This document shows positions 1 through 36,390 of a stretch of DNA of 37,140 nucleotides, one piece after another. This stretch comes from a virus. Under the pieces are notes generated by a model, which made no database searches, was not told the DNA's origin, and saw only the letters and a program-made list of their open reading frames with translations. Position 1 is the first letter of the stretch. Every line of letters starts with the position of its first letter. The DNA lies in IMG/VR virus record IMGVR_UViG_3300032331_000809, positions 1-37,140 of that record; one strand, written 5' to 3'. A program made the position numbers and the translations under genes.

Positions 1-3000
1 ACGAAGGGAGCAGCAGAAACTCCTCTTTTAATTAATTTTATTGCTAAATCGGAAGCTTCTTTTTCAGTATCGCCAAATGCTATTTCTGCTGAAAAGCCAC
101 TTTTGGTTTTATCAATAACCACATAGTCATCCCTATTATCTTTCTCAAAAGTATTTTTTTTAATTTCATACCTTTTAGGGTCTAATGAAGTTATAGCAAA
201 CCCTTCCTTCTTCCCTTTTTGCCCCCAATCGCTTTGAACCTCCTCTAAGAATAATACCTTGTTACCGTCTGCATCTTTTCGGGTGTTCATGCGGAGGTGG
301 ACAAGGATGTTGGGTTCGTCAAAGTGGGTGGATTTGAATTGCTTTCCGCCTTGACCACTTTCAATAGTATTTTTATATACTTCGTTTACTCTGTTTTGTC
401 TTGATTGAAATGAGTTTGGATATTCTGCAACTAATTGCGAATAGGAAACGCCATATAAATCAACAGAAATATCATCTAATGTCTTTGACTTACTCGGCAT
501 CGTAACCAAGACCTCTTTGTAGTTTTCTTTTTCTCCTTCTAATTGGTATTGAGAGAATTTACTTCTTTGTTTTTCAGGATTAGTTTTTGCATTTGCTTCT
601 ACATAAGATTTAGCGTCTAAATATGTAAAATCTCTGCCGTATTCCGTTCCATTAATACGAAGATTATACCTTCTTTCGTATTCATTTGATTTATCTGATA
701 ACTTAGCAAATACCCCACCATAAACTTCTTCCCAATCGCTTCCGACACTTTCAAATGCTTGTTTTATTTGTTTAAATGGTCTATCTGATTTAATCACTTC
801 CACAACCTCTACTCTGTTATCTTTTAGGAATTGTTGTATCTCTTCTTTTGATACTTTGCCTTGCTCGTTAAGCCATGCTTCAAGTCCTGTCCACTTTAAT
901 TCATCAGGTTTCGCTCCTGCATTTTTTAGTTCACTTAAAACTTGCTTCCCACTCCCCCATTTAGAAGCTTTTAAGTTTAATATTGATTTTTCTAATGGAC
1001 TATAGAAACCATTTACAATGTCAGGAGATGCAGGCTTTACAAGTTTTTGAGTACCATCAGGCATTGTTACTGTTCTCTCCTCTTCTCTAATCGAAGCTCT
1101 TGAGACTTCTCCTAACTTTGCAGCTTTCTCAACATCTGCAGCTTCCCCTTTTGCCATTGCTTCAGTAACTTTATTTACAAAGTCAAGAAGCTCTTGCACA
1201 TCAGTAATTTCTTGAAATGGTTTAAATGCACCATTAGTGATTCTTGAAACATATTCATTGATGATAGTTGCTATTTTCCTAGCAGTACTCAACTCAAGCT
1301 TTGTACCTTGCTCAGATAATAAAGCTTTTAATTCAGCCATATATTCCTCGTAAGTTACTCCTGCTTTTTGGTATGCAGGATTGTTTGCAAAATCAAGTAA
1401 TGCTTGATTTGATTCTTTGCTTAGAACTGTTGCAATTTTTTCTTGGAACGACTTGAATAGTTTTTGATTGTCCCCAAATGCTTTTTGTAAAACAACATGA
1501 GCTACTTCATGGGCAACAACAGCAGAAGTTGCTTTGCTTAAATCAATATCAATACGAACTATTGATTCTCCTTTAGCGTTTTTAGCCATCATAAAGTGTC
1601 CATCACTACCTTTGTAGCCATTAATCTGCCTCATTGCCTCATTGTAAGAACTTTCATTTTCATGGAAATGAATATCGGAATTTGGGAACAAAGACTTTAA
1701 TGTATTAACCAATCTCTGTCCTGTCTTGATTGTTTTAATGACACGTTCATCCTTTGTTCTCGACAATAATTTTTCGACACCTTCCTTATTTGATGCTTGC
1801 AAAGCTAACGCTTCCTCCTGTTTTTGTTCTTTACCAAGCAATAGGTCCTCTACTGCTTTTACTAACTCAGGATTGCTACCATCTGCTTTTGCTGCATGAT
1901 AAGCCTCGGCAACTGCCATGTTATACCCACCTTCCTTTTCTAAATTAAAAACTGTATCTCCGGGCAATAAGTCATATATCTGCCTAGTTTCTTTACTGAC
2001 AGGAATTTCTTCCAACGCCTTGGCTGTATTTTCTACATCTCTTAATTGAGGAGCTTCTTCCAAAGCTGTCTTCAAAGACACTTCTGCAGCATCTATTGCA
2101 GATTGCTGAGATGGTGTTCTTTCTTCTTCAGGAATGTCAATAGCTTCATGGTACATATCAGCTAACAACTTCTCATTGCCTTCGATAGATACCTCTTCTC
2201 CTTTGTTGTTTGTAAACGTAAGGTTTACTTTGTCTTCAGAAGATAACTCTTGTAAGGCTTTGAACGTGTCATCTACCGTTGCGAAGACTTGCGGTTTCTC
2301 ATTTTCGATGGCTTTTTCAGCTCCTTTAGATTTGTCTCCTTCGCCCACTTCTTGCAATCCCACTTGGGGTTGTTCTGTGCGTAGCACGCCTGCATTTGTT
2401 TCAGACTCTTGAATGGCATTGTATTTATTTTTAATTATTTGTGCTGTTTCAGGGTCGTTGCTTACCGCTAACACAACCCTATTTAATTGTTCTTTAGGTA
2501 ATGATTCTACTTTTTCTATAAACTTCTCCTTAGTAAACCTTCTTCCATCTATAGAATATTGAGCTATACCTGCTCTTTCTGTTCCTGTGATTTTACTTAA
2601 ATCCACAGATTTATCTTCAGGAAGCAAGGTTTTTGTTTCTCCTATAGCCGCAAGCTCCTCATTTATCTGCTGTATCTTTGAACGATATATTTCCTTTCTG
2701 TTTGTCGTTGAAGACAATTCGTTTCTTGCCGATAACAATTCCATTGTTCTACCTAATATCTCAGAGTTGGGAGTCTTGTCTGTACCTACCGATAACAATT
2801 CTCTTGCATCTCTTCTTAAACCAACATTATCATTTATCCTTTGAGCAACATCTGCATCAATTTTTTTAAGCTGAAGCATATTATTAGCCCAAGAGCTTAT
2901 TTTTTCATCAGAAGCTTTATCTGCGCTTATATTTTTAATATCGGTTAAGCTATTGGCAATATCTACATTGTTTCTGTTTCTTATATCCTTATAAGTGTTA

Positions 3001-5579
3001 AATCCCCAATTTATTGTATTATTCCCTAATCCTCCTAGTGATTCTTCAGCAATTTCACTCCAAGACACTTTTTTTCTTCCTCTTCCTGTCATAATCTCAG
3101 AACCTTGAGCTGCAAGTTCCCCTGCTCCCTCCATAAGAGGGTCAAATACTAAACGCTCAGCGACTCCGTGAACTACCCTTGAACCTGTAGAAGCTAATGC
3201 ACTAGCAGGCTTAAATACTCTTCCTGCAAGGTTTCCTGATACCATATCTACTATTGCAATAGGGATACCTCTTGCTAAACCTACAGCTCTACCCTCTTCC
3301 CACACTGATTGGTCTTGCAATGCGGCAGCCAAAGATTCAGGGTCTGTTGGGTTATATCCTTTATTTTGAACAGCAGCCATTACAGCATTTGTGTATTCAG
3401 CAGCAAGACTTGTGATAGCCATACCGCCTGTAAAACCTTTGCTTGCACCTGCTATAGCTCCTGCCGGAACTGTAACTTCACTAAACGGACCTCCTGCTAG
3501 ACCTGCAGTAGCACCTGCGGCTGTTCCTGTAGCTGTTGTAGCTGCTACTATCTTTAAACCATAAGGGAGAATCTGACTAAGACTTGAAGCAACAAATGTT
3601 GAAACCATTTCGATAGGGTCGCTTGCAAAAGCGGACGCTGACTCTTTAAATCCTCTTGATTCTCTCCAACGAGCCATTGCTCTGTCTTCAGTATTTGACA
3701 TATCTTCATACTGCTTTGCAATGTATTCTGAAGCTTCTTTTACATCTTTAAATGAAGAAATATCTTTCCCACCCGGCATAGAAAAAGACAACAATTGCTC
3801 TCCTATTTTTCCGTTTTTATAAGCATCTGTTGTAGCGTTCCAAAAACCTCTTAGATTCTCTTTAAATTCTCCGTTTACTTGCTTGTCAGCCTTGGCATCA
3901 AAATAAGTTTTGGAAATATCAAATTTTGTAGCTGCTTCTTTTTGAGCTTGCTCAGATGAGTAATACGCTTCTGTCAATGCATTAAATTCTGATTGGGTGC
4001 TTGGGTCTGTGTTTTTATACTTTATAAGGTCTTTAATTGGAACTCCAAACTTTTCAACAGATTGAGCATCTAATTCGTATTGAGTAGCCTTAGCTTGATT
4101 GTTTATTCTGATGGCTTCTCCTGCAATTTCTTTTTGTCTTTTTGCAAGTTCTGCATCCCAATCCATACGAGCTTTTTCCGATTTCCCCTCAGATAAAAAT
4201 CCGTAGTCTTTTACAAGAGGCTCTAGTTCATCTCTTTGCTTTTTTAACTCTTTTATATATTGAGCTGCATCGCTTCTAAGCTTTCCTTTTATAAATAGCT
4301 CAGGATTAGATTTTTTTAATCCCTGCTCCCCATCCTCGTAATTGCCTTCAACAAAATCTATAATATCATCAAGCTCTTTGTATTTGTCCCATCTATTTTT
4401 TTCTGTGATATAATCTAAGCCTCTTTCTTTGTAGAATTTGTCTGCCTCAATATCTCTTGTACTTACATCTTTCCAAGACCCATTAGCAAAATCTTTTGCC
4501 TCTTGGTCTGTTTTGAATTGGAAAATTTCCCCTCTTTCTTTTGCTACCTTAAATGCTTCTTTAAATGGAAGCTCTTGCCAAGTAGATGGGCTTGAATTGT
4601 AATTGTTTGGGTCTTTAGGGAATAGTGTAGGCATTGCATAAAACTTACCATCTTGTTCAAAAGATGTCATCTTTACGGTAGATTCTGAGCCATCCTCATT
4701 TAATCTTCCTACATTTCTTAAATTCTGAACTTTGTATGCTTTGTTTAGAAAATCCTCGTTGTTTATCTTGAAATTTTCTTGAGCATAAGTGTTTAAAAAC
4801 TGACGAAGTTTTGCTGATTCTGCTACTTCTGTTGCATTTGTATATGGGTCTAAGTCGATTTCTACAGAATGTTTGCCATCAAATGAGCGTGCAATCATGG
4901 CATCTCCAACTCCTGTCTTTTCAAAAGTAAAACCATATTTACCAAAATCTTTGTTTAATTTTTCAGTAACATAATTTTCTTCTTTGTCTATAAGTTTATC
5001 GTCAACAACCTTTAATTTTTCTTGAAACTCAGGAGACTTTACAATGCCAAGATTGTTTGCTTTTATGCGAGCTTCATTCTCTTTTTGTTTTTGTGTATCC
5101 TGTATTTTCTGAGCATTTAAAAGCTTTGCATTTTCAGCTTTGTCTTTAGCTATCTGCAAACGACCTTGTTCTGCTTGTATTTTGTTTACAGGCGGAGCTA
5201 GAGATGTCGCATCAGACGACATTCTTGGTTGCTCTAATTTAAACGAACCTGCATCAAATTTAAAATCACTCTGTCCTTGTGAAGCCAAAGAACCATCTTC
5301 CGAAGATGATTCCATAGAAACCTCCTCTTGCGTAATCGGCTTGAGTGTAGCCAACGGTTCTTTTTTTTTTAATTCTTCAGGAGCAGTAGCAGCAGTTTTC
5401 CCAATCAATGTAGAGAAAGCAGTTTCATCCTTTTGATAGCCTTTGCTTTTTACATAAGAATACATATCTGAAAACACTTCAGAATCGTTATGCAAAAGTT
5501 TAATAAACTCTTCACGATTTTTTCTGTATCCACTAGATTGCGCTTTTTGATATAAGTCATCAATTACTTGTTCGTCCAT
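1..5579 (-). CDS. Giant ejected/polyvalent virion protein with HEVAH metalloprotease motif (3' end outside window)
   Basis: This open frame starts with ATG at 5579 and runs without a stop to the window edge, so the protein is longer than 1859 residues and its C-terminus is missing here. Visible parts in order: a charged N-terminus beginning MDEQVIDDLYQKA; a small module near residues 295-355 containing FYAMPTLFP and later FKTDQEAKDFA, like a module seen in other phage internal proteins; long helical, charged stretches; a Gly/Ala-rich hydrophobic segment at about 655-765 that could enter a membrane; an HEVAH motif at 1357-1361, with E1412 or E1416 in EEYMAEL as a possible third zinc ligand; and C-terminal segments (about 1535-1590 and 1745-1800, the latter with HFDEPNILVHLR and EEVQSDW) resembling domains of phage large polyvalent proteins. 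It is last in a trio of internal proteins, the place T7 gp16 holds. Ejection into the host and peptidase activity are inferences. Confidence 0.8.
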   Translation of the reverse strand, partial: MDEQVIDDLYQKAQSSGYRKNREEFIKLLHNDSEVFSDMYSYVKSKGYQKDETAFSTLIGKTAATAPEELKKKEPLATLKPITQEEVSMESSSEDGSLASQGQSDFKFDAGSFKLEQPRMSSDATSLAPPVNKIQAEQGRLQIAKDKAENAKLLNAQKIQDTQKQKENEARIKANNLGIVKSPEFQEKLKVVDDKLIDKEENYVTEKLNKDFGKYGFTFEKTGVGDAMIARSFDGKHSVEIDLDPYTNATEVAESAKLRQFLNTYAQENFKINNEDFLNKAYKVQNLRNVGRLNEDGSESTVKMTSFEQDGKFYAMPTLFPKDPNNYNSSPSTWQELPFKEAFKVAKERGEIFQFKTDQEAKDFANGSWKDVSTRDIEADKFYKERGLDYITEKNRWDKYKELDDIIDFVEGNYEDGEQGLKKSNPELFIKGKLRSDAAQYIKELKKQRDELEPLVKDYGFLSEGKSEKARMDWDAELAKRQKEIAGEAIRINNQAKATQYELDAQSVEKFGVPIKDLIKYKNTDPSTQSEFNALTEAYYSSEQAQKEAATKFDISKTYFDAKADKQVNGEFKENLRGFWNATTDAYKNGKIGEQLLSFSMPGGKDISSFKDVKEASEYIAKQYEDMSNTEDRAMARWRESRGFKESASAFASDPIEMVSTFVASSLSQILPYGLKIVAATTATGTAAGATAGLAGGPFSEVTVPAGAIAGASKGFTGGMAITSLAAEYTNAVMAAVQNKGYNPTDPESLAAALQDQSVWEEGRAVGLARGIPIAIVDMVSGNLAGRVFKPASALASTGSRVVHGVAERLVFDPLMEGAGELAAQGSEIMTGRGRKKVSWSEIAEESLGGLGNNTINWGFNTYKDIRNRNNVDIANSLTDIKNISADKASDEKISSWANNMLQLKKIDADVAQRINDNVGLRRDARELLSVGTDKTPNSEILGRTMELLSARNELSSTTNRKEIYRSKIQQINEELAAIGETKTLLPEDKSVDLSKITGTERAGIAQYSIDGRRFTKEKFIEKVESLPKEQLNRVVLAVSNDPETAQIIKNKYNAIQESETNAGVLRTEQPQVGLQEVGEGDKSKGAEKAIENEKPQVFATVDDTFKALQELSSEDKVNLTFTNNKGEEVSIEGNEKLLADMYHEAIDIPEEERTPSQQSAIDAAEVSLKTALEEAPQLRDVENTAKALEEIPVSKETRQIYDLLPGDTVFNLEKEGGYNMAVAEAYHAAKADGSNPELVKAVEDLLLGKEQKQEEALALQASNKEGVEKLLSRTKDERVIKTIKTGQRLVNTLKSLFPNSDIHFHENESSYNEAMRQINGYKGSDGHFMMAKNAKGESIVRIDIDLSKATSAVVAHEVAHVVLQKAFGDNQKLFKSFQEKIATVLSKESNQALLDFANNPAYQKAGVTYEEYMAELKALLSEQGTKLELSTARKIATIINEYVSRITNGAFKPFQEITDVQELLDFVNKVTEAMAKGEAADVEKAAKLGEVSRASIREEERTVTMPDGTQKLVKPASPDIVNGFYSPLEKSILNLKASKWGSGKQVLSELKNAGAKPDELKWTGLEAWLNEQGKVSKEEIQQFLKDNRVEVVEVIKSDRPFKQIKQAFESVGSDWEEVYGGVFAKLSDKSNEYERRYNLRINGTEYGRDFTYLDAKSYVEANAKTNPEKQRSKFSQYQLEGEKENYKEVLVTMPSKSKTLDDISVDLYGVSYSQLVAEYPNSFQSRQNRVNEVYKNTIESGQGGKQFKSTHFDEPNILVHLRMNTRKDADGNKVLFLEEVQSDWGQKGKKEGFAITSLDPKRYEIKKNTFEKDNRDDYVVIDKTKSGFSAEIAFGDTEKEASDLAIKLIKRGVSAAPF

Positions 5580-5600: not shown

Positions 5601-7508
5601 TTATTTAGTACTATAATCTACTCCTCCCGAAAGAGTTCCTGTTCCACGAAGAGATTCAATCCATTTTTCTTGTTCTATAGGTGTTTTGCCTTTAGGGTTA
5701 GCTTTCAAAAAGTTATCTATTGCACTTTTTGCTTTTACAGGGTCAGATAAATCTATTTCATTTGACTCCGCTCCGTTAGGAGCTTTAACAACTATATAAT
5801 CTCCTGCTGTGTATGGTATTCTTACGCTAGCTCCAATTGCACTTAATGATGCATTTAATTCATCGAAAGCTTTCTCTTCATCTTCATTTATCTTTCCTGT
5901 AATGTTTGGTATAGAAGCCCCATATTCTTGCATAGGAGTTAATTTGATAGGCTCTGCTTCAAATGCTGATATGGTTTCAGTTGGGACAGCCATGCTTCTT
6001 CCTTGTGGCAAAAATTCCTTAACATACTTCATTACATTATCTTCATTCAATCCTTGCGTGTTTAAAGCTCCAACCATTGACTTAGCAAATGCAAGTGGAT
6101 TTGTTTCCGCTTGTCTGTAAGTAAATACTTGCTGTCTTCCATCTTTATTGGTAATAGTGTATCCTGTGCCTGTCTTTTCTATTGGTAATCCTGTCTTAGA
6201 CCCTAAATATTTTGTTCCGGCTGACTGCTGAGATGCATCTCCTACTAATGAGTAAACCAAATTCTGAGCAAAGTTTTTAGCATCCTCAGACTGTTTACCC
6301 ATCTCGTATTCTACAGCAGTAGGCGACCTACGCTCTTGAAGTTGTATTTGAGGAGTAGTTTTTATTTGCTCGCTTCTATCGTATCTCAAACGTGCGTTTG
6401 TACGCAAATAAGATAATGCATCCTCTTCTTGCTTTTCGCTAAATACAGGAACAGGGCTACCGTTAGATTTATTCTTTAAAAGAATTTTCTCAGGGTTCTG
6501 CTTTGCATCATTCTCATCCCAAGTATATGTGTATGGTTTATTGTTTTCAGGACAAATATCAAGAGCATTTGTAAGAATAGATGAGGTATTGTAAGGGTTT
6601 GCTAGTTGAGATTTTAAAGCTTTTGTTTCAGCTTGTTCAAAACTTATAGCAATGCTCTTCAAGTCTTTTTGGTTTTTCAACCATTGTTCTTTGCTTCCTT
6701 TATATCCTTGCTGAACAGCCTCCTCATACATCTGCCTAACTTTCTCAGGGTCTGCCAAGAAATTGTCTTTTTTTGTTACATCAAGAGTCTCGCTAATCAA
6801 ACCTGTTGAGCCTAGTGTTGACTTAGCAACTTGTATAGATGTCAATTCTTTGCCTAATCCTTTTACAAAACCATCTAAATAACCATCTACATCATATCTA
6901 TCAAATTGACCTTTTATTCTATTGCGCAATGCATTTATTTCAGTAAACTTATTTGGATTAGGATTCATTTTATAAACGCCATCCTCTCCTTTTTCTTTAT
7001 AAGCCACATTTACCTTGCCATCCGTAGGATTAATGTACAATTGTGTTTCGTTAAAGTTTCCAAATCCTTCAGCTTCAGCCATTAAGAATTGCTCTAAGTC
7101 TTGAGAATTACCACCCTTCATTCTATCCCATTTATTCTTAAATTCTGTTTGGTATTCCTTTATCAAACCAAACGCAGCAGATGTACCATCTGTAAGATTT
7201 TGTCTTTGTACTAAATAGTCATTTAATTTTAACTGACCCGACTTCAATAATTTATCTTGCATCAATCTTGCAGCCTGAGCATCTGAAGCGTATTTCAACG
7301 CCCATTCGTTCATCTGAGTATTCTCTCCTTGTGGAGTTTCAGATAAAGTCATACCAAAATCACGAGAAGATTTGTCTATTGCAGCCTTCTTCTCCTCACG
7401 AGCTTTGTTCTCGTTGAGTAACATCTCGCTCATATTCTTGGTAATATCCGCCCAATTTATATAGCTATCTGCTTCTCGTTCTGCGTATTTATAATATGTA
7501 TTTGCCAT
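5601..7508 (-). CDS. Putative internal virion (ejection/cargo) protein, 635 aa
   Basis: A soluble, mostly helical, charged protein with no membrane segment and no motif I can assign. Its N-terminus (MANTYYKYAEREADSYINWA) leads into a Lys/Glu/Ala-rich helical region, and low-complexity Gln/Asn/Lys stretches follow. It lies 21 nt upstream of the giant ejected protein and 3 nt downstream of the gp14-like gene. That order matches podoviruses such as T7 (gp14-gp15-gp16) and crAss-like phages, which package cargo proteins. The role as the middle ejection protein therefore comes from position, size and composition. The ATG is preceded by an A/T-rich leader typical of Bacteroidota. Confidence 0.6.
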   Translation of the reverse strand: MANTYYKYAEREADSYINWADITKNMSEMLLNENKAREEKKAAIDKSSRDFGMTLSETPQGENTQMNEWALKYASDAQAARLMQDKLLKSGQLKLNDYLVQRQNLTDGTSAAFGLIKEYQTEFKNKWDRMKGGNSQDLEQFLMAEAEGFGNFNETQLYINPTDGKVNVAYKEKGEDGVYKMNPNPNKFTEINALRNRIKGQFDRYDVDGYLDGFVKGLGKELTSIQVAKSTLGSTGLISETLDVTKKDNFLADPEKVRQMYEEAVQQGYKGSKEQWLKNQKDLKSIAISFEQAETKALKSQLANPYNTSSILTNALDICPENNKPYTYTWDENDAKQNPEKILLKNKSNGSPVPVFSEKQEEDALSYLRTNARLRYDRSEQIKTTPQIQLQERRSPTAVEYEMGKQSEDAKNFAQNLVYSLVGDASQQSAGTKYLGSKTGLPIEKTGTGYTITNKDGRQQVFTYRQAETNPLAFAKSMVGALNTQGLNEDNVMKYVKEFLPQGRSMAVPTETISAFEAEPIKLTPMQEYGASIPNITGKINEDEEKAFDELNASLSAIGASVRIPYTAGDYIVVKAPNGAESNEIDLSDPVKAKSAIDNFLKANPKGKTPIEQEKWIESLRGTGTLSGGVDYSTK

Positions 7509-7511
7509 TGT

Positions 7512-8327
7512 TTATTTAGGTGTTTCAAAAACAAAAGGGTTTAAATCAAATCTATATGGAGCTCCTTGCTGAGGTTGCGCTTGGTCTTGAATTTGAGATT
7601 GGTCGCTTCCACTCCATCCTCCATTTTTGCTAAGACTCATATTAAATTGATATTGCTTGTATTGTTCAGGTGTCAAATCCATAGTCTGTCCGGGAATTGT
7701 AGGATGAGGGACAGTAACCCTATCTCCTCCACCTATCCCTGCAGGGGTACTTACAGCGTCCGTAGTTGTAGTTGTTTTTGGATATAAAGGAACTAAACTT
7801 AAACCCTGTTGCCCCATAGATGTCAATCCTTGTATGCCTTGTCTTGTTGCTGCTGCTGCGGCTTGTTGTGCATCTCTTGCAGCCAACTGAGCACCTTGCA
7901 CTTCTGCTAAATCTAAGTTTACACCTAAATCACGCAAACGAGCGTCCTCTGCCAATTTCATCTTCTCAATATCTGTCATCTCTTTACCCATTGCAGTTCT
8001 AATTGCAGCCTGCCCTTCGTTCATAGCCATCTGAACTCTGCCTGCTGTAGCAGCAGCACCTCGCTCTGACTCTTGAGCTACTCGTATTGCTTGCGCCCCT
8101 TGAGAAAGCATAGCTTCTCTTTCTAATTCGTAAGGCTCTTTTTTTACAGCTAATTCGTCATAATAATTTGTTTCAAGTTTTTTACGAGCTTCCGCCATAG
8201 CAGCGTCTGCATCTGCCTGTGCTTGTTTTTGTAATTTTTTTTCTTTACTCGCATCGGAGAAAGACTTAGCTGTTCCTGCGGCTGTAACCGCTAAACTGCC
8301 TATTGCTATTGCTGTTGCTACTCCCAT
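7512..8327 (-). CDS. Putative internal virion protein, T7 gp14-like
   Basis: A 271-residue protein. A short hydrophobic Ala/Gly N-terminus (MGVATAIAIGSLAVTAAGTA) is followed by a long Ala/Gln/Glu-rich helical or coiled-coil region (about 25-185) and a Pro/Gln-rich tail. This layout is seen in the small internal or ejection proteins of podoviruses (T7 gp14-like), which insert in the outer membrane to start the DNA channel. It is first of three consecutive putative internal proteins, 3 nt before the 635-aa gene. I see no enzymatic motif. The match is by architecture rather than by alignment. Confidence 0.6.
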   Translation of the reverse strand: MGVATAIAIGSLAVTAAGTAKSFSDASKEKKLQKQAQADADAAMAEARKKLETNYYDELAVKKEPYELEREAMLSQGAQAIRVAQESERGAAATAGRVQMAMNEGQAAIRTAMGKEMTDIEKMKLAEDARLRDLGVNLDLAEVQGAQLAARDAQQAAAAATRQGIQGLTSMGQQGLSLVPLYPKTTTTTDAVSTPAGIGGGDRVTVPHPTIPGQTMDLTPEQYKQYQFNMSLSKNGGWSGSDQSQIQDQAQPQQGAPYRFDLNPFVFETPK

Positions 8328-8328
8328 T

Positions 8329-8730
8329 TTATAAAAGTTTTATCATTTCTGTTGTGTAATTGTCTCCCTTAATGTATCCACATCCTTCATATATCTCAAT
8401 CAAACTTGGATGTTTTATTAAGGCATAAGTATATTTATATCCCACCTGTTTACATAATTCTGTCAATGCTGAAATCAATAGTTTTATGGCTTCCTTTCTT
8501 GTTGGCTTTATATTGTATGTTTTACTTGAGATAATCCAATCTACCCATGCAACACTTGAATTTGTTGTGTACATAAACCCTGCACAAATAGGAATATCCC
8601 CATCATAAACAATGAAACCTGAATCAGGGAGAAAATCCTTTGCAGGAGCTTCCCAACCCCAATCCCTCCACCAACCTACCAATATACTATCGTAATCAGT
8701 CTCATTAAGACCTCTTATAGTTAAACTCAT
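8329..8730 (-). CDS. GNAT-fold acetyltransferase-like protein
   Basis: This 133-residue protein reads like a compact GNAT domain: an N-terminal beta-alpha unit (MSLTIRGLNETDYDSILVGW), a central strand pair (GFIVYDGDIPICAGFMY), a helix with Lys/Arg-rich lead-in (KPTRKEAIKLLISALTELC) and the closing YEGCGYIKGDN segment typical of GNAT motif B. The canonical Q/RxxGxG/A acetyl-CoA loop is not clear. Small GNAT-like proteins often sit in phage structural operons, where their role is unknown. It lies 1 nt from the gp14-like gene and 21 nt from the tail gene upstream. Virion modification or a degenerate structural role are both possible. Confidence 0.6.
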   Translation of the reverse strand: MSLTIRGLNETDYDSILVGWWRDWGWEAPAKDFLPDSGFIVYDGDIPICAGFMYTTNSSVAWVDWIISSKTYNIKPTRKEAIKLLISALTELCKQVGYKYTYALIKHPSLIEIYEGCGYIKGDNYTTEMIKLL

Positions 8731-10533: not shown

Positions 10534-13500
10534 TTATGGTAATGTACAATTGCATCCGTTAGAAGTTATTTCAAAATCCCATCCTGAAGGACCACTTGTT
10601 GTAAAGTAAGGTGCGTTTGGATATAAACAACATATCTGAAAAGGGTCTGTTCTTGAATCCAAAGATACACTTACTAAAGTATTACTACAGTTTATGTAGT
10701 TAATAACCGTAGTTCCTTTTGTTCCCGGTGCAAATACATTGAATGTAATACAATCAGTAAATGGATTACAAAGACCACAGTCAATCGTTTTAAGCAATCC
10801 TCCTTCTGTAGTTCCTGTAACTGTAGGAGTAGTTCCTGCACAAGCATCTACTTTTAATACCGTGTGAGGAGTAACTGAAACTGTAGTTGTAGAGCCATCA
10901 CATCCGCCCTCTGTTGAGCAAGCTATATAATGAACATCATTTGACAAATCTCCTTTATTTACATAAAACCATTGAGAACAAGGGTCTGTACATCCGCAAC
11001 CACAAGTAGAGCCAACCGTAACATCTCCATCTATAATTTGATACAAAGTTACACCTGCTACATTGTTCACGCATAATTGATAAGTCTCTTCAGGGTTTAA
11101 GAATACTGAGAAAGGACCTACAGCTCCTCCGCAATTATCAGCTCCATAAGGGAAGTATATCTCTGCTGTATTTACTAAAGAGTTATTTGTAAGAGTAAAT
11201 GATATACAAGCATCTTGACAAGCATCACAATTACAACAAATATCTGTTATTGGATTAGGGTCTTCATAAGAAGCATAACACAAGTCTAATGGCAATGCAT
11301 CTCTATAATCCCAAATCAAATAAAGATAATTTCCAAGCGAAGATAATGGGACTGTAAACTGAGCCTGATAAAGCGAGCCTCCACCTGTATTTGGAGTTGC
11401 AATACTAGATGCTGCCAATAAATTACTAATATCAGTTGGTGTATTACTATAAAAAGTATTTGTTCTTAAATATCTGAACTTGTCATTCGTAGGGTCAAAA
11501 ACAAAATTATCAGGAACAATGCTATTAGAGATTAAAGTCATTGTACTTCCTTGCGGAGGGAACGAGCCGCTACCAACAAAACCTACAGTTAAATTATACC
11601 TAGAAACAACAGGAGCAAGCATAGAGCTTGCAAATACAACTCCCGACGATATAAGAGGACCTATAAAAGCTCCATTTGTATATCTGTATTGAATATGAGA
11701 TGTGTCTCCTGCCTCTACGTTGTTGGTAACAACAACTTCTATAATCGTTAACGACTCAGCATCAGGGCAGCTCATTTTAATATCAAGTATAAGTTGAATA
11801 TCAGTATAATAAACTCTTATGACAGCAATCTGTTCGTTAATATCGTTTTTGTTGAACGTATAACTACCTGAGGTCGTTGTTGGTCCTATACTGAATGTAG
11901 CTCCTGCATAGTCTATTTCAAACTCAAAATTACCAACCCCTGTAGATGACACTACAGTCCAAGTCATTGTGGTATCTCCAATTAAGCTCCCTAAATTTAC
12001 GCAATACTCAAAGTACTGAGAATCCTGAGAAGCATTAGCTAAATTAAGCGTTTGACTAACACCACAATCAAGACATTGAGATGGATTTGGTATTAACCTG
12101 TCGTTAGTGCTAAGAACATATTCGTTCATATAAGGGTCGTATCCGCCAAGCTTTTGTGTTGTGAAAGAGCTATTAAATTCATCTCTAAACCAAGTTCTCA
12201 TATTGGCTTCTGAGATTATCTTTAATCCATCCTGTTGCATTGAATCTCCCTTGATATTAACTACAACGCCACGTTTTACGTCTGTAAAAAATCTGTCATA
12301 GCCCCATTGAACATAGCTTTCAGGATTAAAACTGATACCATACTTTTCAACACGAGCAATTTGAGTTCCTAATACTTCAGGGACAGATGATATTGCTCCG
12401 CCTGCTGCCGAGTCTGATAATAAATTTTTACCGGCAAGAACGTAAGATATTTTATCTTCTTGTAGTGTTAATACATCTGTTTCTCTTCCATCTAATATGA
12501 ATATTGGACCAAAAGAGGATTCTAAGTATTTGTAGTTCAAAAGACCTAAATTGAACTCATTGAGTTTATTTAGGTTTGATTCAGTATTGTATATACCACT
12601 ATAAGTTATATCGGCAAATCTATCAGCTTCTTTGTAGTCCTGAGATGATACTGCTGTTACTCTCTCTCCAATAACGAAAGGTCTTCCAATAATTGAATCA
12701 CGTATTTTGTAGCTCTCTGCACCATTACCGAAAGAAAAGCAATTGAAAAATTCAGTATCAACAATAGCAGGGTCTCCTGCTGATATATTTTGGTCTTGCA
12801 AATTCCCATAGTGATTACCATATTCATCAATATTGAATGAAAGGTTGTTTTCAAAGAATACGTCAGGAGCTGCGTCTGATGGTTCTGTTTCAAATATAAG
12901 AACATCCAACGCTCTAAATACTGTTATTTCAACATTCATAAAGTATCTCCTTCCATCGTCATTCCCACCTATACAGCTTTTCCCTGAACTAAACTGTATA
13001 AGAAGTTGATTGTTTGAAAGGTCTCTATAAAATTGTATATAACAAATATTAAAATTAGTAGCAGTCAAAAACCCATTCGTAGGTATATATTGAAGGCTTG
13101 TCGAGCCATTATCTAGTGAAGTCCCACTACTTAATGTAGAGGCTACATTATCTCCATTAAACCAATCCTCCATATTATCATAATTACGAGAAGCTATAAA
13201 TTCCCTATTGTACACATAGCCCCTTCTTTCGCATTTGCTACCTGTTCCTCCCCTTTCAAAATGCCAATCGAGTACTATTCTGCTTCCTGCCGGAACACTA
13301 TAGTCAATAAAAGAACCCGGATTAGAAGGGTCAGGTAGATTCATAGGATACCTTAAATGGATATAATTACCACCAATCCCTGCAAACATACTTATCAATC
13401 CCGGAGCAACAGTTGAGTTAGCGTCTTGTGCAGAATTAAAAGAGTTAGGATTCATCTTCATGTAAGTCCCTGCCGGAACTACAGCCCCTGATGTTGGAGT

Positions 13501-15696
13501 GATAAACGCTGAAGACTTTGAGGATTTTTCAAGAACAGTTGCATAAGCACAATTTTGAACAGGACCTGAAGTGTCGGCTTTTACTATAAGCCTATCCCCC
13601 TGCTCAACTTTTCTTGACGATTCGCCTTCGAGCAAAATCCAAAGCTCGCCTGTATATGGGTCTGTAAAGAAAAACTTGCAATAAATTGTTTCGTAAAACT
13701 CAGCATCAGGTTTTATTACAAATTTATATCTCTTTGCCCAATACGGAGCTACTTGTGTAGCAGGTATTGTTACTTGAATTGAGTTTTTGCGAGAAGAATA
13801 AGCACATGGAACATATTGAGTATTGTTTGGACTTACTAATGCTGTTGAAGCTCTATTAAACTCATCCATATAGACAATACCAATCTCATACCCCCTATTA
13901 CTATGCAAACTTTTTGAGTTCGCTATTCTTTTATAATAGGCATCAGTAGCTGTAATTGTATAATATTCTGTATTTTTATAAACAGCCATTGGAGGGCTAA
14001 GTTGAACATAGTAGAAGCCCATTGCAGGGAACTGAAATCCAATCTCATTACTTCCCGGACTTGTTATAATCATTATAGATTCTCCATAGGCGTTCTGTCC
14101 GCTTGCATATTTTGTTAGCAGTCCTATGTTTGTAGGTATCAAGCAATTAAAATCATCAGTCAATGTAGTGCCATCACAAGAAGTATCAACTCCCGGAGTA
14201 AAAGAAAAAACAGGCTTTATATTCCCAAGCGGCAAAGAAGTACCAATGGCTTGCTGAAATTCAGGGCTTATGGCTAATTGATAAACAGAAGAATAGTTTT
14301 GACCTAAATAAAAAACAAAAGAAATGTCTATTGGAGCTGTTGTTTGTGTAGGGTAAGGTGTTATTCCTTGCCAAAGAGCGTGCTCTACAGTAAAATTAAC
14401 GGTAATAGACGAGCCGGCAACCAAAGGTATCCCTGTTAAATCAATAAACGTCCTACCATCTGATACGGATGTAGGTCCATTTATAGTCCAATAACCTACC
14501 TCTTGCCTGTCAGGTATAGATTCACTACCTATTGGAAGAGATATTAAATTAGTGAAGTATTCTAACTTTATTGGGGTTTCATCTCTGTCTATTAAATCAT
14601 ATCCTTCTACATAGTTTCCGTACATAAGCCTATTACCCATAATTGTTTGAGCTTTGGCAAATCTTGGGACATTGTCGTATAGTCTTAATAGTTCACTCTC
14701 GGATATAATTGTAAATATTTTGCTATTATCAAAAATATATTGAGCATCTTGATTATCAGGTATTCCTAAATTTTTCTTATCTAATTTCTCAATTATCTTA
14801 ATAATGTTATTAGCAGATTGCTTAAACAATAAATCAATACCAACAACAAGAGGACCGCCTGTGTTGTAAGTAATTATGGCTGTGTTGCAAGAGTTTATCA
14901 TCCCTTCATTTAGCATACTTTCTATACTAAATTCAAATGGATTGGGAATAAAAGCAACCTGAGACCATTGAGATGTGGCAGAATACTCTCCATCTATGTA
15001 TTTGTACCTGTAAGCAAATGAAAGAAATCTTTCTTCCATGAAGTTTTCTTGACCATCTCTGCTAATAGGCTCAACTGTAGGAGATTCTGTTGGCGGCTTC
15101 TTTATAACAAGCAAAGACTCTTCAAATACCTGTTGAGGTATAATACCATTAGGCAATGGCGTAAGACCACCGCCATCAACTCCATTAACAGGCAATGGAT
15201 AGCCTCTATTTATATTTATAAACCTTGGTGCATTGTAGTCATCGGTAAAGAATAGCAAATCCTTTATGATATTTACACCTGTTATAACATATTTATTGCT
15301 AAAGTTGAGCGTAGATTTTACGTTTCCACCATCATTTATGCTTACTACATGGTAAGTTAATATGTTTGTTAGGACATTATAAGAAACAATCAAATCACAA
15401 ATCCCTATTGCAGATGGGAAGTTTTCGTCATGCACAAACCAAAATATATTCTCATGGGAACTATCTTCAATAGCCCCAATACATCTTGCGTCTGCACTCA
15501 ATTGAACATTACCCGGACCATATAGAGCTGTAAGAGCTATGTTGCCTTTTGTGTTTTCAATTGCTCCAAGCTCAGACTTTTCTGTAGAACCCATCCTTAC
15601 GTTCATTGCATCGCTATACTCTCCTTCAGGTAGTACACGTTGGTCCACCACCTTATTCATCCTTCCTGCTATAAAATTTGTTGAGATTTTTCCCAT
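10534..15696 (-). CDS. Very large tail protein (nozzle/stabilisation-like N-terminus, Cys-rich repeats at C-terminus)
   Basis: A 1720-residue protein starting MGKISTNFIAGRMNKVVDQR, followed by EGEYSDAMNVRMGSTEKSE. That opening, in which a phage protein lists a trajectory of mutually similar beta blades, is characteristic of tail nozzle or stabilisation proteins of P22-like and crAss-like podoviruses. The middle is beta-rich with many aromatic residues. The last ~240 residues contain about three tandem modules with clustered cysteines (CCNCDACQDAC, GCGCTDPC, DCGLCNPFTDC, SNGCNCTLP), each ending in an Ig-like beta unit. It begins 1 nt after the 304-aa ring-like gene ends. A tail-tip or nozzle role is inferred; the Cys repeats may be metal-binding or disulphide-stabilised outside the cell. 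Confidence 0.7.
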   Translation of the reverse strand: MGKISTNFIAGRMNKVVDQRVLPEGEYSDAMNVRMGSTEKSELGAIENTKGNIALTALYGPGNVQLSADARCIGAIEDSSHENIFWFVHDENFPSAIGICDLIVSYNVLTNILTYHVVSINDGGNVKSTLNFSNKYVITGVNIIKDLLFFTDDYNAPRFININRGYPLPVNGVDGGGLTPLPNGIIPQQVFEESLLVIKKPPTESPTVEPISRDGQENFMEERFLSFAYRYKYIDGEYSATSQWSQVAFIPNPFEFSIESMLNEGMINSCNTAIITYNTGGPLVVGIDLLFKQSANNIIKIIEKLDKKNLGIPDNQDAQYIFDNSKIFTIISESELLRLYDNVPRFAKAQTIMGNRLMYGNYVEGYDLIDRDETPIKLEYFTNLISLPIGSESIPDRQEVGYWTINGPTSVSDGRTFIDLTGIPLVAGSSITVNFTVEHALWQGITPYPTQTTAPIDISFVFYLGQNYSSVYQLAISPEFQQAIGTSLPLGNIKPVFSFTPGVDTSCDGTTLTDDFNCLIPTNIGLLTKYASGQNAYGESIMIITSPGSNEIGFQFPAMGFYYVQLSPPMAVYKNTEYYTITATDAYYKRIANSKSLHSNRGYEIGIVYMDEFNRASTALVSPNNTQYVPCAYSSRKNSIQVTIPATQVAPYWAKRYKFVIKPDAEFYETIYCKFFFTDPYTGELWILLEGESSRKVEQGDRLIVKADTSGPVQNCAYATVLEKSSKSSAFITPTSGAVVPAGTYMKMNPNSFNSAQDANSTVAPGLISMFAGIGGNYIHLRYPMNLPDPSNPGSFIDYSVPAGSRIVLDWHFERGGTGSKCERRGYVYNREFIASRNYDNMEDWFNGDNVASTLSSGTSLDNGSTSLQYIPTNGFLTATNFNICYIQFYRDLSNNQLLIQFSSGKSCIGGNDDGRRYFMNVEITVFRALDVLIFETEPSDAAPDVFFENNLSFNIDEYGNHYGNLQDQNISAGDPAIVDTEFFNCFSFGNGAESYKIRDSIIGRPFVIGERVTAVSSQDYKEADRFADITYSGIYNTESNLNKLNEFNLGLLNYKYLESSFGPIFILDGRETDVLTLQEDKISYVLAGKNLLSDSAAGGAISSVPEVLGTQIARVEKYGISFNPESYVQWGYDRFFTDVKRGVVVNIKGDSMQQDGLKIISEANMRTWFRDEFNSSFTTQKLGGYDPYMNEYVLSTNDRLIPNPSQCLDCGVSQTLNLANASQDSQYFEYCVNLGSLIGDTTMTWTVVSSTGVGNFEFEIDYAGATFSIGPTTTSGSYTFNKNDINEQIAVIRVYYTDIQLILDIKMSCPDAESLTIIEVVVTNNVEAGDTSHIQYRYTNGAFIGPLISSGVVFASSMLAPVVSRYNLTVGFVGSGSFPPQGSTMTLISNSIVPDNFVFDPTNDKFRYLRTNTFYSNTPTDISNLLAASSIATPNTGGGSLYQAQFTVPLSSLGNYLYLIWDYRDALPLDLCYASYEDPNPITDICCNCDACQDACISFTLTNNSLVNTAEIYFPYGADNCGGAVGPFSVFLNPEETYQLCVNNVAGVTLYQIIDGDVTVGSTCGCGCTDPCSQWFYVNKGDLSNDVHYIACSTEGGCDGSTTTVSVTPHTVLKVDACAGTTPTVTGTTEGGLLKTIDCGLCNPFTDCITFNVFAPGTKGTTVINYINCSNTLVSVSLDSRTDPFQICCLYPNAPYFTTSGPSGWDFEITSNGCNCTLP

Positions 15697-15697
15697 A

Positions 15698-16612
15698 TTA
15701 TTTTATTGTCTTATCCATCCCTCTTAAATTCATTAAAAGTCTTCCGGGATGTATGTTACTAATTCTTATTTTAGCGTTATTAAGTAAAGCCTTTCTTTCC
15801 TTTCTTGCTCTATTTATTATGTATTCTTGAATACCAAATTTAGAGTTTAATATTTCAAATTTTATCTCAGCATAGATATATTGTTCAAAAAGTTTGTTTA
15901 CCATTATTTTTGAAATATCTCCATTCTCCATGCCATCTGAAATATACTCAAGTATGCATAATTCATTAACCATTGATGAGTCAAAATTTATAACACCTGC
16001 TTTTTTATCTATGTTAAAAGTAGGGTTAAAATTAGCAGTTTCTGTATTTAAACCAAAAGCAGCTCCTATTTGATATTGAAAATACCAAGTCCCATCTATA
16101 TCCCAACCATATTGACCATTAAATTGATGTCCTTGGTTTAAGTAAATACTTTTTTTTGTTTTGTGTAATCTATCAAAATCAATCTGAGAGTTTTGCGGTT
16201 GAAGAGCGTTTCCATTTTGGTCAAACAAAATCATACCTGCATTATCTTGTAGGTAGGCTTTTGATGAAAGTGTTTGAATATTCTCAGTTAACGGTCTCAA
16301 CCAACCATCTTTATACATAGATATTCTAACCCAATTTACATAATCAGATGGTAATATATAAATCAAAGATTCTGCAACCGTTAATTCTAAAACTTTTGTT
16401 TCCTTAAATGCATCGTAATTCAATTCCTGTATAGCACGTTTTGCATGGAATAATATCTTGTATCTCTCTTCGTTGTTTACCAATGAGTGATTTCCTGAAT
16501 ACATTAAAAGAAAATTGTTTACGATGTCCTGAAGGCTTACGTATTGGTAAGACCCCCAATTGGCATCTGTAGGGCTATTCCCATTATTTTCATAATATTC
16601 ATATTGTGTCAT
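15698..16612 (-). CDS. Putative tail ring/connector protein, 304 aa
   Basis: A soluble mixed alpha/beta protein. The N-terminal segment (YQYVSLQDIVNNFLLMYSGN, then ERYKILFHAKRAIQELNYD) is a helical adaptor-like region, followed by VLELTVAESLIYILPSDYVNWVRI, a pattern common in connector or gatekeeper proteins of podoviruses. It lies between the 331-aa gene (18 nt upstream) and the 1720-aa tail protein, where head-to-tail adaptors are encoded. The function comes from this order and pattern, not from a catalytic signature. Confidence 0.6.
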   Translation of the reverse strand: MTQYEYYENNGNSPTDANWGSYQYVSLQDIVNNFLLMYSGNHSLVNNEERYKILFHAKRAIQELNYDAFKETKVLELTVAESLIYILPSDYVNWVRISMYKDGWLRPLTENIQTLSSKAYLQDNAGMILFDQNGNALQPQNSQIDFDRLHKTKKSIYLNQGHQFNGQYGWDIDGTWYFQYQIGAAFGLNTETANFNPTFNIDKKAGVINFDSSMVNELCILEYISDGMENGDISKIMVNKLFEQYIYAEIKFEILNSKFGIQEYIINRARKERKALLNNAKIRISNIHPGRLLMNLRGMDKTIK

Positions 16613-16630
16613 AGCTTATTGTTTTTATTG

Positions 16631-17626
16631 TTATTGTTGCATACTGAACGATGGCTGTTCGTGTTGTTCTTGAGCCATTGCGTATTGAGTAACCTCTACT
16701 TCACGAATAGATATACCACAATATTGACATATCTTCATAACCAATTTATATCCATCTTCATTAGGCATTTCAAAGTCTTGATAATCAGGTTGAGTTTGGT
16801 CGAATACCGGCTCACCACCTGAAAGCGTAACGTATGTCCATTTTGGAACTTTAGGATACCTAAAATAATCAGCCTTAACCGCACCATAACCCTTTATCGT
16901 TGAAGGATATATAGTCAGGTAGTCATTTGTGTTTGTATAAGCAGGATAAGTTAAAGATGGAGCTGTTAATAATGAATTTTGCAATAAAAGTATCTTGCTA
17001 TTTGATACCTTCTCTGCCTCTGCATAAGTGCTTGCTGAATATACAGCGTAAGATTCTCCTGTAGCTGTAAATATATCGTCATTTAGCATTAAGGTATCTA
17101 TACCAACTAGAGCCTCCACCGTTGTACTTTGGTATGTATCTCTATTTACAACAATATCCCCAACGCTAACTCCTGCCAAAGTAAAATCTGCTAACGTATC
17201 TATTAAGCTAAATGAAGCAACTGCGTCAGATAATCCTTGAGCTTTTATTGTTGGATATACAATTAATTTATTAATCATATACGCTGCATTTCCAACTGTA
17301 GTTATAGATGGTACGTAATAGTTGTTTACAATATTGCTTGAAGGGGTTAATTTTGGAGTGATAAAATCACTAACTAAAAAACTTTCTAAAACCTCCATTA
17401 TTGGTTTACTAATATCAGCGTAGTCAGAGCCTGAGGTTCTTCCTCTTGGAGACCCTGATGACATTCCGTTCTCAGCATTAATTGTCTTATTGTAGCTACT
17501 AAAATACTCCTCGTAAAGCTCCATCTGTGCATTAGCTGCAAACAAATTAAAATCTGATGGAGATATGTATCCATAATTATTTTTATTAAGGATGGATAAA
17601 ACCGAGTTTCTTACTTCATTTATCAT
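16631..17626 (-). CDS. Putative ring/head-tail connector protein with beta module, 331 aa
   Basis: The N-terminus (MINEVRNSVLSILNKNNYGY, then SPSDFNLFAANAQMELYEEY) is a helical segment that recurs in Bacteroidota phage structural proteins and resembles adaptor proteins. Residues about 148-198 contain a beta module (VSVGDIVV, LNDDIFTATGESYAVYS) also seen in the 161-aa protein at 31131-31616. The C-terminus is helical and Gln-rich. It is first gene of the unit after the 17.66-kb terminator and has a TACATTTG promoter match 18 nt before its ATG. A head-tail connector role is inferred. Confidence 0.6.
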   Translation of the reverse strand: MINEVRNSVLSILNKNNYGYISPSDFNLFAANAQMELYEEYFSSYNKTINAENGMSSGSPRGRTSGSDYADISKPIMEVLESFLVSDFITPKLTPSSNIVNNYYVPSITTVGNAAYMINKLIVYPTIKAQGLSDAVASFSLIDTLADFTLAGVSVGDIVVNRDTYQSTTVEALVGIDTLMLNDDIFTATGESYAVYSASTYAEAEKVSNSKILLLQNSLLTAPSLTYPAYTNTNDYLTIYPSTIKGYGAVKADYFRYPKVPKWTYVTLSGGEPVFDQTQPDYQDFEMPNEDGYKLVMKICQYCGISIREVEVTQYAMAQEQHEQPSFSMQQ

Positions 17627-17644
17627 TACTCAATATTTTTTTTA

Positions 17645-17652
17645 CAAATGTA
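17645..17652 (-). promoter_or_regulatory. Possible Bacteroidota promoter -7 element for the tail unit
   Basis: The minus strand reads TACATTTG, a full match to TAnnTTTG, 18 nt before the ATG at 17626 and just after a terminator. There is no good -33 TTG at 17-21 nt (the nearest is about 15 nt away, inside the terminator stem). The element is also half of the short palindrome TACAAATGTA. Confidence 0.4.
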
Positions 17653-17682
17653 CAAAAAAAAAGGGCACAATTTTGCACCCTT
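17653..17682 (-). terminator. Rho-independent terminator after the 248-aa gene
   Basis: On the minus strand AAGGGTGCA pairs with TGTGCCCTT (9 bp with two G-T wobbles) around a 4-nt loop, followed directly by a run of T. It lies 30 nt after the stop of the 248-aa gene and separates it from the tail unit. Confidence 0.75.
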
Positions 17683-17712
17683 TTCCCACTAACAATATAA
17701 ACAAAAAATAAA

Positions 17713-18459
17713 CTATTCTCCTAATGTTGTCTCCAACATACTCAATGAATCCAAACCTTCATCGCTTTTCAAGAATAATGCAACTACACTATATGGGTCT
17801 TCGCCAAAAGGAATAGATAACATCTTCTTTTTGTTGGTCGGTGTATTATAAAAAACTTCCTTTTCATTGTTTCGGAAGGTCAATAATTTGTTTTCAAAGA
17901 ACAAACGAACCTTAGATAAAAATCTCAAATCAGGGTCGTTTAATATATTTAGAAATTCTCTTGGTTGCGTTTTAGCAAACACCAAAATGTCTCTCTTTAA
18001 TTCAGGGGTTGAGATTGTCGATGGGTCTTTACCAAACATTACACGAGTAAGCATTTCGATTTGGTCTATAGAAAGCTGACGAGCTTCAACCAATGCATCT
18101 ACTTCTACGTTTAAATCGCTGATTTCAGCAGTAGCATCTTTTTCTTTATCAACCTCAGAAAATATAATATTATTCATTGGATGGTAATGTAAAAATGCTT
18201 GTAATACAGGATTTTGTTTTGGTACTCTTAGGAATCCATCTTCAAAAATGATAGGCTCAAGTATTGCATTTCCATCTTGTTCGTCTTCAAATGGAGACTT
18301 TTGATTTTTCGCATATCTAAGAGCTCTGTTTACATTATTCTTCTCATCGTACCACATAAGAGGGTATCTCGGATGATTTCTTGAAGCTAATGTGTATGAT
18401 AATGGGTTGCCGATTAATAATCGGTAAATTTTGTCTGTTGGTACTACGTTTTTTTCCAC
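17713..18459 (-). CDS. Conserved-looking phage structural-region protein, GTG start, 248 aa
   Basis: The start codon is GTG at 18459 (GTG GAA AAA AAC); no in-frame ATG lies usefully upstream. The protein begins VEKNVVPTDKIYRLLIGNPL and contains RYPLMWYDEKNNVNRALRYA, an acidic middle and an extended helical C-terminal half (VDALVEARQLSIDQIEMLTR; RLFFENKLLTFRNN). I do not recognise a domain. It is isolated between two strong terminators, just after the capsid gene, so it may be made at a level different from its neighbours, by read-through of the capsid terminator or from a promoter I cannot see. A virion or capsid-linked role is plausible only from position. Confidence 0.65.
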   Translation of the reverse strand: MEKNVVPTDKIYRLLIGNPLSYTLASRNHPRYPLMWYDEKNNVNRALRYAKNQKSPFEDEQDGNAILEPIIFEDGFLRVPKQNPVLQAFLHYHPMNNIIFSEVDKEKDATAEISDLNVEVDALVEARQLSIDQIEMLTRVMFGKDPSTISTPELKRDILVFAKTQPREFLNILNDPDLRFLSKVRLFFENKLLTFRNNEKEVFYNTPTNKKKMLSIPFGEDPYSVVALFLKSDEGLDSLSMLETTLGE

Positions 18460-18496
18460 TTTTATATGATTTGATTTTATTTGAATTTAATTTATT

Positions 18497-18529
18497 AAAA
18501 AAAGGAGAGTGTCTTTGAAGACACCCTCC
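18497..18529 (-). terminator. Strong rho-independent terminator after the major capsid gene
   Basis: On the minus strand GGAGGGTGTCT pairs with AGACACTCTCC (11 bp, one G-T) around a TCAA loop and is followed by seven T residues. It lies 20 nt after the capsid stop codon. A terminator right after the capsid gene fits very high capsid transcription and mRNA 3'-end protection. Confidence 0.88.
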
Positions 18530-18549
18530 AATTTTATATTCTTTAAATA

Positions 18550-19968: not shown

Positions 19969-19993
19969 TTTGTGTTAATTTTTTAATTTGTTT

Positions 19994-21088: not shown

Positions 21089-21109
21089 TTTATTATATTT
21101 AATTTATTG

Positions 21110-21117
21110 CAAAAATA
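21110..21117 (-). promoter_or_regulatory. Possible promoter for scaffold and capsid
   Basis: The minus strand reads TATTTTTG (fits TAnnTTTG) 21 nt before the scaffold ATG, in the only sizeable gap between portal and scaffold genes. No clear -33 TTG is present. A promoter here would give capsid and scaffold a transcript of their own ending at the 18.5-kb terminator. Confidence 0.4.
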
Positions 21118-21137
21118 TATATTTATTTGATATTTTT

Positions 21138-33097: not shown

Positions 33098-33530
33098 AAC
33101 AAATGATTTCTTGAAATATTGGAGAGTAATACGATATTACTACAAAGCAAAGTATAAATTAAACCAAGCAGACCTTGATATGCTGCTGTTTCTCTACTCA
33201 GAACCTCACTTTAGCAAAGACAAATTCGCAGAGTTTAATGAATTATTATCTTGGGATGAAAAGCGTTTCAACAGATTGAGACAGGAAGGTTGGATTGAAG
33301 TGTTCCGAAAACGTGTCGGAGTACATAAAGGGTTATATCATCTGTCCTTTAAAGCTCAACGTATGATTGCTGAAATCTACAAAAAGCTAAATGGGGAAGA
33401 AATCGCATCAAGCGAAAGACATAACCCTATGTTTAGGAAAAGAGTGCCATATACCGATAAGGTTTATCGAAATATGATTAAGAGTATGAAAGAAGCTACT
33501 CGACAATCACGACATCAGACTCCCGAATAA
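33087..33530 (+). CDS. Winged-helix-like DNA-binding protein, 147 aa
   Basis: The only complete plus-strand gene. The sequence YKLNQADLDMLLFLYSEPHF, then FAEFNELLSWDEKRFNRLRQ and EGWIEVFRKRVGVHKGLYHL, then SFKAQRMIAEIYKKLNGEEI reads as helix-helix-recognition helix and wing (the 'GWIEVFRKR...KGLYHLSFKAQRMI' hairpin) of a MarR-like winged helix. Basic residues dominate the C-terminus. It diverges from the small basic cassette and converges on groES, with 3' ends overlapping by 35 bp. It may regulate phage transcription, but related phage genes are also found among structural genes. Its start is preceded by an A/T-rich leader, with only a weak promoter match (TAACTTCG). Confidence 0.7.
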   Translation: MKTKTNDFLKYWRVIRYYYKAKYKLNQADLDMLLFLYSEPHFSKDKFAEFNELLSWDEKRFNRLRQEGWIEVFRKRVGVHKGLYHLSFKAQRMIAEIYKKLNGEEIASSERHNPMFRKRVPYTDKVYRNMIKSMKEATRQSRHQTPE

Positions 33531-36336: not shown

Positions 36337-36390
36337 TTTGTTGGTTCGGTTCGGTTCGGTTCGTTTGTTGGTTCGGTTCGGTTCGGTTCG
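36337..36390. repeat. 27-bp perfect tandem repeat built of GGTTC units
   Basis: Two identical 27-bp units (36337-36363, 36364-36390) each begin TTTGTT and then carry four GGTTC pentamers. This is the most GC-rich patch in an otherwise very AT-rich region, so it stands out as a deliberate or slippage-generated element. Confidence 0.9.

Follow-up and report, generated by a model that had tools for sequence, protein, structure and literature searches.

A giant polyvalent-type phage protein with a conserved zincin-like peptidase domain carried as an optional cassette

Results

A giant, probably virion-borne mosaic with a probable zinc peptidase

Evaluating the gene at one end of a 37,140-base virus record (the whole of which we refer to as the window), we found that it encodes a giant protein which is very likely a virion polyvalent protein, and that this protein carries a zincin domain which, judging from residue conservation and a predicted fold, can be regarded with high confidence as an active zinc peptidase. 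Related giants are mosaics of the same modules in varying sets and orders, and the peptidase is an optional cassette among them. The reading that we put forward, and to which we give an even chance, is that the giant is packaged into the particle and delivered alongside the DNA, with the zincin cutting its own chain to free the cargo downstream. Features are collected in Table 1, where L numbers denote related loci.

Table 1. Features of the giant and of the two genes that accompany it, in window coordinates
Feature	Residues	Coordinates	Strand	Basis or occurrence
Giant polyvalent-type protein, 3' end missing	1-1859	3..5579	-	uninterrupted frame, ATG 5579
N-terminal tag, two tandem ~30-aa copies (..DLYxxAxxxGYxKxxxEFxxLL..), then KKK	1-75	5355..5579	-	self-repeat
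'Fill' module, variable	195-363	4491..4997	-	common to L015, L056, L063, L087, L088, L097, L106, L107
Core module	520-894	2898..4022	-	common to L056, L090, L095, L100, L101, L104, L107
Gly/Ala-rich stretch, inside core module	655-765	3285-3617	-	hydropathy
'Post' module, short, conserved	1042-1096	2292..2456	-	in giants with and without zincin
Zincin metallopeptidase domain (predicted)	1285-1475	1155..1727	-	30+ homologues, AlphaFold2, structural matches
HEVAH (H1357, H1361 predicted zinc ligands, E1358 predicted catalytic)	1357-1361	1497..1511	-	30/30 conserved
EYMAE (E1412 probable third ligand, E1416 nearly invariant helper)	1412-1416	1332..1346	-	alignment, model
EN module (GFYSPLE...)	1512-1637	669..1046	-	always directly before EEVQSDW domain
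EEVQSDW domain, cut by contig end about half way	1636-1859	3..674	-	homologues continue beyond
Trio gene 1, 271 aa, virion structural protein		7512..8327	-	phrog_13764 (virion structural protein), E 8.8e-11
Trio gene 2, 635 aa, probable virion/ejection protein		5601..7508	-	phrog_35506; MW202828 644-aa homologue, E 7e-59

A preliminary description of this DNA had reported a frame of more than 1859 codons, and the single open frame is real; it has to be corrected in that the frame lies on the minus strand, starting at 5579 and staying open as it runs off the contig at base 3. As the record itself stops at window base 1, the contig truncates the protein, and the 1859 residues are its N-terminal part only; complete relatives measure about 2,000-5,700 aa. 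The motifs that had been picked out were all found where they had been placed, namely HEVAH, EEYMAEL (1411-1417), HFDEPNILVHLR (1752-1763), EEVQSDW (1779-1785) and the Gly/Ala-rich hydrophobic stretch, which contains no strong transmembrane segment (best 19-residue Kyte-Doolittle mean 1.27), such that a membrane-spanning role for it is not supported. Searches of Pfam, PHROGs, NCBIfam and PDB with the whole giant returned no meaningful match. Elsewhere in the window, frames at 34025-35641 (-) and 33496-33753 (-) resemble, by reading only, phage-encoded GroEL and GroES, and annotated GroEL and cpn10 genes are present in phi38:1 and MW202828. An exact, GGTTC-rich 27-bp tandem repeat (36337-36390) is followed by an AT-rich array of 16-bp period (36409-36640), both in apparently non-coding DNA, while Rfam and tRNA scans of the window returned no match.

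The gene lies in the virion module of a probable Flavobacteriia-type podovirus

Phage identity was assessed from the large terminase (TerL), which is 78% identical to that of MW202828 (Podoviridae sp. ctfjg026), followed by Flavobacterium elemo phages (45%) and then by Maribacter phage Panino, Cellulophaga phi18:3 and phi38:1 and Tenacibaculum Gundel_1, with crAss-like TerLs as distant matches. The phage is most likely a podovirus of Flavobacteriia-type bacteria whose giant is carried in the particle and injected. Genomes of these TerL relatives span about 60-79 kb, and the window therefore probably covers slightly over half of the phage genome.

These phages share a gene order of TerL, portal, capsid, tail genes, a large spike-like protein, a small protein, a protein of ~500-640 aa and the giant; in the window, too, the giant gene comes after TerL, portal, a major capsid candidate and other virion structural families, a late/virion neighbourhood. 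The proposal that the giant is the third member of an ejection trio was borne out in position, and in phi18:3 the positional counterparts of all three members, gp120 (227 aa), gp121 (499 aa) and gp123 (1935 aa), are annotated 'experimental MS/MS proteomics', that is, as seen in the virion. The accompanying comparison with T7 gp16 stood as to third place in the trio but is a positional analogy only, there being no similarity to lysozyme/transglycosylase domains (no Pfam, PHROG or NCBIfam match to a lytic transglycosylase domain in the 1859 residues at hand). Next to trio gene 1, the window has a 133-aa frame at 8329-8730 (-) that has no Pfam match and whose MW202828 positional counterpart is named 'N-terminal acetyltransferase complex subunit'.

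Homology between phi18:3 gp123 and the window giant is chained, leading from gp123 to phi38:1 gp101 (E 1e-16) and to Gundel_74 (6e-14), from Gundel_74 to the MW202828 giant (2e-12) and from there to the window giant (1e-84), through differing segments. Direct homology between the window core and gp123 was rejected (hhalign probability 40 over 18 columns only), so that the virion argument is one of position plus chained homology, by which the MS/MS evidence mainly transfers. Packaging in this phage is probable, and virion location together with the related phages suggests that the giant enters by injection.

The zincin domain keeps its catalytic residues across divergent homologues

For a protein of such length and composition, chance predicts 0.008 HExxH motifs, and the combination of this motif with a Glu 51 residues past the second His, kept in divergent homologues, is not chance. 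H1357, E1358 and H1361 are invariant (30/30 non-redundant sequences), E1412 is found in all 29 sequences with a residue at that place and E1416 in 28 of the 29. As one zincin search had used a pattern containing VAHEVAH, conservation was recounted on the 13 matches that came from searches made without the zincin, 11 of which keep H, E, H and E1412; the remaining two (L005 and the second frame of L017) are poor alignments in which HExxH is absent at that place. The domain was also recovered in giants retrieved through other segments of the chain, among them L014, L020, L050, L004, L073 (the elemo giant) and the MW202828 giant, and overall identity drops to 17-20% while the catalytic residues stay conserved.

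The AlphaFold2 model of the domain, built from 28 sequences (pLDDT 85.7, pTM 0.74), runs in the order H2-13, E17-22, E43-49, E55-62, H68-84 (HEVAH at 73-77) and H126-143 (E128, E132), with E1412 and E1416 both in the last helix. This layout is the published one for polyvalent-protein metallopeptidases, that is, a helix, three strands, the HExxH helix and a Glu helix (Iyer et al. 2017, PMC5512222). The preliminary description had read a zinc-protease motif here with a downstream Glu as possible third ligand, a reading upheld by the invariant HExxH and E1412, by the predicted zincin topology with E1412 in a helix downstream of the HExxH helix, and by domain-bearing homologues, which keep the His and Glu residues.

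Among solved structures in the PDB no match at E<=0.001 was found, by sequence or by fold, whereas predicted viral structures gave five matches at that threshold, all to large proteins of which four are unnamed. Large phage structural and polyvalent proteins among these predicted structures match the model with probability up to 1.00; lower-ranked matches comprise polyvalent-named proteins, structural proteins of KPP25, phi17:2 and Gundel_1, and IrrE and SprT, the last two at probability 0.90-0.99 with E above 0.01. Anthrax lethal factor rows also occurred in the fold search. The best Pfam rows, Peptidase_M91 (0.0085), Serpin (0.0004) and eCIS_core, were below cut-off and were not used, and no curated Pfam or NCBIfam family includes the subfamily at cut-off.

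Scanning viral contigs with the single window sequence gave no match, whereas a pair alignment did find relatives. Applied to 84,980 bacterial/archaeal genomes, the same pair alignment yielded no relative, in a pattern-based search that distant forms could escape; genome contigs retrieved through the EEVQSDW domain do give weak zincin profile matches. Comparison with the metallopeptidase of the N4 virion RNA polymerase (HELVH at 2228) gave an hhalign probability of 2.4, outside the motif, a weak test given that N4 is a single sequence.

The peptidase is an optional cassette in a reshuffled chain

Comparing giants, we found that the modules tag, fill, core, post, mid, zincin, EN and EEVQSDW combine in varying sets and orders. 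In one relative (L015) the layout is tag, fill, post and zincin, with EN and EEVQSDW following 1500 residues on; in another (L100) it is tag, core, post, zincin, LPD23, SprT-like and ART-like; and in a third (L004) zincin, EN and EEVQSDW are adjacent, as in the window giant. Wherever these modules occur with the zincin, tag, core and post precede it in the chain and most of the variable part follows it. Complete tag-bearing giants (L058, L060, L064 and L066) have no HExxH, which makes the peptidase an optional cassette and means that self-cutting is not required for loading or delivery in general.

Pfam found no named polyvalent-associated domain (LPD, MPTase-PolyVal or ART-PolyVal) in the incomplete 1859 residues. 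LPD23 is above the Pfam cut-off in four relatives that share the zincin (L089, L091, L100 and L104), which places the family among polyvalent proteins, and the earlier assignment of the giant to this type is supported by that domain together with the reshuffled modules. ART-PolyVal in L100 is below cut-off, and in L015 and L107 a GNAT module stands directly ahead of the zincin. A second metallopeptidase-like motif, HExQH, with SprT-like/DUF6782 similarity, occurs ~300-800 residues past the zincin in L091, L093, L094, L095, L097, L100, L101 and L104.

A duplicated N-terminal tag and a widespread uncatalogued domain

The window-type tag heads 27 related giants, starting at residues 1-10. Its self-repeat score in the window giant is 57, against maxima of 30 in shuffles and 38 in internal windows, and most of the repeat scores computed for the giants likewise lie above those of all shuffles and all internal windows of the protein concerned. 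Among the non-redundant ORFs that reach 1700 aa, 32 of 56 have a score of at least 50 in the first 90 residues. Of the 296 shorter ORFs from these loci 14 have such a score, and several of the 14 are themselves truncated or shorter giants (Fisher p 1e-19, a value that ignores shared ancestry). The 32 duplicated-tag giants sort into 14 groups between which no similarity was detected, and for a tag shared with other proteins of the same loci we found no clear case above background. Lysines and low-complexity sequence often come after the duplicated motif, for example in L015, L056, L006, L102, L107 and L074.

Taking the T4 capsid targeting sequence as a model, we consider the duplicated tag a candidate virion-loading or ejection signal. 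We suggest only tentatively, with our judgement leaning against it, that such two-part tags, fast-evolving and repeatedly duplicated, serve swappable chains as a general code for loading or ejection order, with the zincin as one self-release device. If the tag is a loading signal, it would account for the packing of very different giants and could serve for loading foreign proteins, as the T4 sequence does.

The EEVQSDW domain, with which the truncated window giant ends, has the family pattern EExQSDWGQxGKxxGF ... WTTGxQQxxRY ... GGxGMKxFY (members L002-L055 and L111-L170), with 15 invariant positions in 37 sequences, and its homologues continue past the point of truncation as APFVTxTxxWxxLxLKxALxxAxxxGxxxxxWTTGxxQxxRY...GGxGMKxFY. 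It occurs in viral contigs and in 60 bacterial or archaeal genome contigs, and one protein of Dolichospermum phage Dfl-JY45 has two copies; it belongs to no Pfam or NCBIfam family, and one member partly matches phrog_7348, 'endolysin'. Its model (pLDDT 82) drew mostly acetyltransferases as top Foldseek PDB rows, at low TM and below significance (best E 0.049), and none of the 37 members matched Pfam GNAT. A divergent GNAT-like enzyme is no more than a possibility. This widespread, uncatalogued domain and the duplicated tag are both worth following.

Discussion

What the peptidase may cut

We propose that the N-terminal half, with its duplicated tag and Gly/Ala-rich core, would load the giant into the particle and guide its exit, and that the chain would be delivered together with the DNA. 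The C-terminal part would then be a set of swappable enzyme-like cassettes. Between the two, the zincin would act as a zinc endopeptidase, with H1357, H1361 and E1412 as ligands and E1358 as base, and would cut its own chain, either in the course of delivery or afterwards, so that the downstream cargo is set free. That self-cutting is the main role of the zincin is a proposition on which we stand evenly divided. Its place between the tag, core and post modules and most of the variable part counts for cutting in cis, and self-processing is the usual proposal for zincins of polyvalent proteins (PMC5512222).

That usual proposal weighs against the other destination for an injected peptidase, a host protein such as a defence component, which the preliminary description had favoured alongside a phage protein and which we judge to be rather unlikely. 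A host-directed effector is among the options of Iyer et al. (PMC5512222), and the optional zincin, present or absent among close relatives and moved in position, behaves as expected of an effector in an arms race; GNAT, ART-like and LPD modules adjoin it in relatives. Action before packaging, whereby the zincin would trim the giant or other head proteins during maturation, seems improbable. It has been proposed for P1 DdrB, which has a zincin and is processed before packaging (PMC5512222), and the giant gene does sit within the late structural module; however, there are complete tag-bearing relatives without any HExxH, phi18:3 and phi38:1 have no zincin by profile, which indicates that assembly in this group can do without it, and the N4 virion RNA polymerase is packaged unprocessed despite its zincin (PMC5512222). 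Finally, that the zincin is a structural relic, its fold kept only as a channel or packing element, as could be supposed given that an N4 region including the metallopeptidase is needed for packaging (PMC5512222), is highly improbable, as the retention of all catalytic residues at 17-20% overall identity points to selection on catalysis.

A zincin subfamily with defined catalytic residues and borders, present in giants of related phages that can be cultured (Elemovirus, with Flavobacterium sp. BAL314 as host, and Gundel_1, with Tenacibaculum), makes a testable system, one that could answer the old question of what the metallopeptidases of injected polyvalent proteins cut.

Comparison with known systems

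The nearest annotated relative is the MW202828 giant (ctfjg026, 3859 aa), which has the same gene order, tag, fill, core and post modules and is 34% identical to the window giant over residues 362-1082. It differs in that its zincin lies far downstream (2434-2621) and is of a divergent type that retains HEH and the first E while lacking the second, and the EEVQSDW domain was not found in it. The name of its gene, 'reticulocyte binding/rhoptry protein' (12001-23580 (+), L056), is probably a misannotation, and neither this name nor 'tRNA methyltransferase' in related records was trusted.

In the same place as the giant, after a small and a ~500-aa virion protein, stand the last structural gene of Elemovirus (3694 aa), Gundel_1 gp74 (2482 aa), phi18:3 gp123 and phi38:1 gp101 (1691 aa). 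The elemo and Gundel giants carry the zincin (E 6.7e-30 and 7.1e-7), their 'structural protein' label being given in the records without an experimental basis; the phi18:3 and phi38:1 giants, unlike the window giant, are those without it.

PhicrAss001 cargo (gp45-gp50) likewise consists of large virion-stored proteins of a Bacteroidetes podovirus that are thought to be ejected before the DNA, but its giants are RNA-polymerase-related, and the available part of that report describes no zincin, LPD or duplicated tag (PMC10172136). T4 internal proteins carry a conserved N-terminal loading signal (CTS) on highly diverse injected counter-defence proteins (PMC3012670), a functional analogue of the proposed tag that is likened to it by function and not by sequence; T4 cargo is small, whereas the window-giant tag is duplicated and varies between phage groups.

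The closest class remains the polyvalent proteins (PMC5512222), which resemble the giant in multidomain length, late/virion neighbourhood, zincin-like metallopeptidase and cassette shuffling, and also in LPD23 and GNAT, these two being found in the window giant's relatives. It differs from them in a zincin subfamily and an EEVQSDW domain that lie outside curated Pfam/NCBIfam families at cut-offs, and in an N-terminal duplicated tag of which the available portion of that paper makes no mention. Its membership in this known class of phage proteins is well supported.
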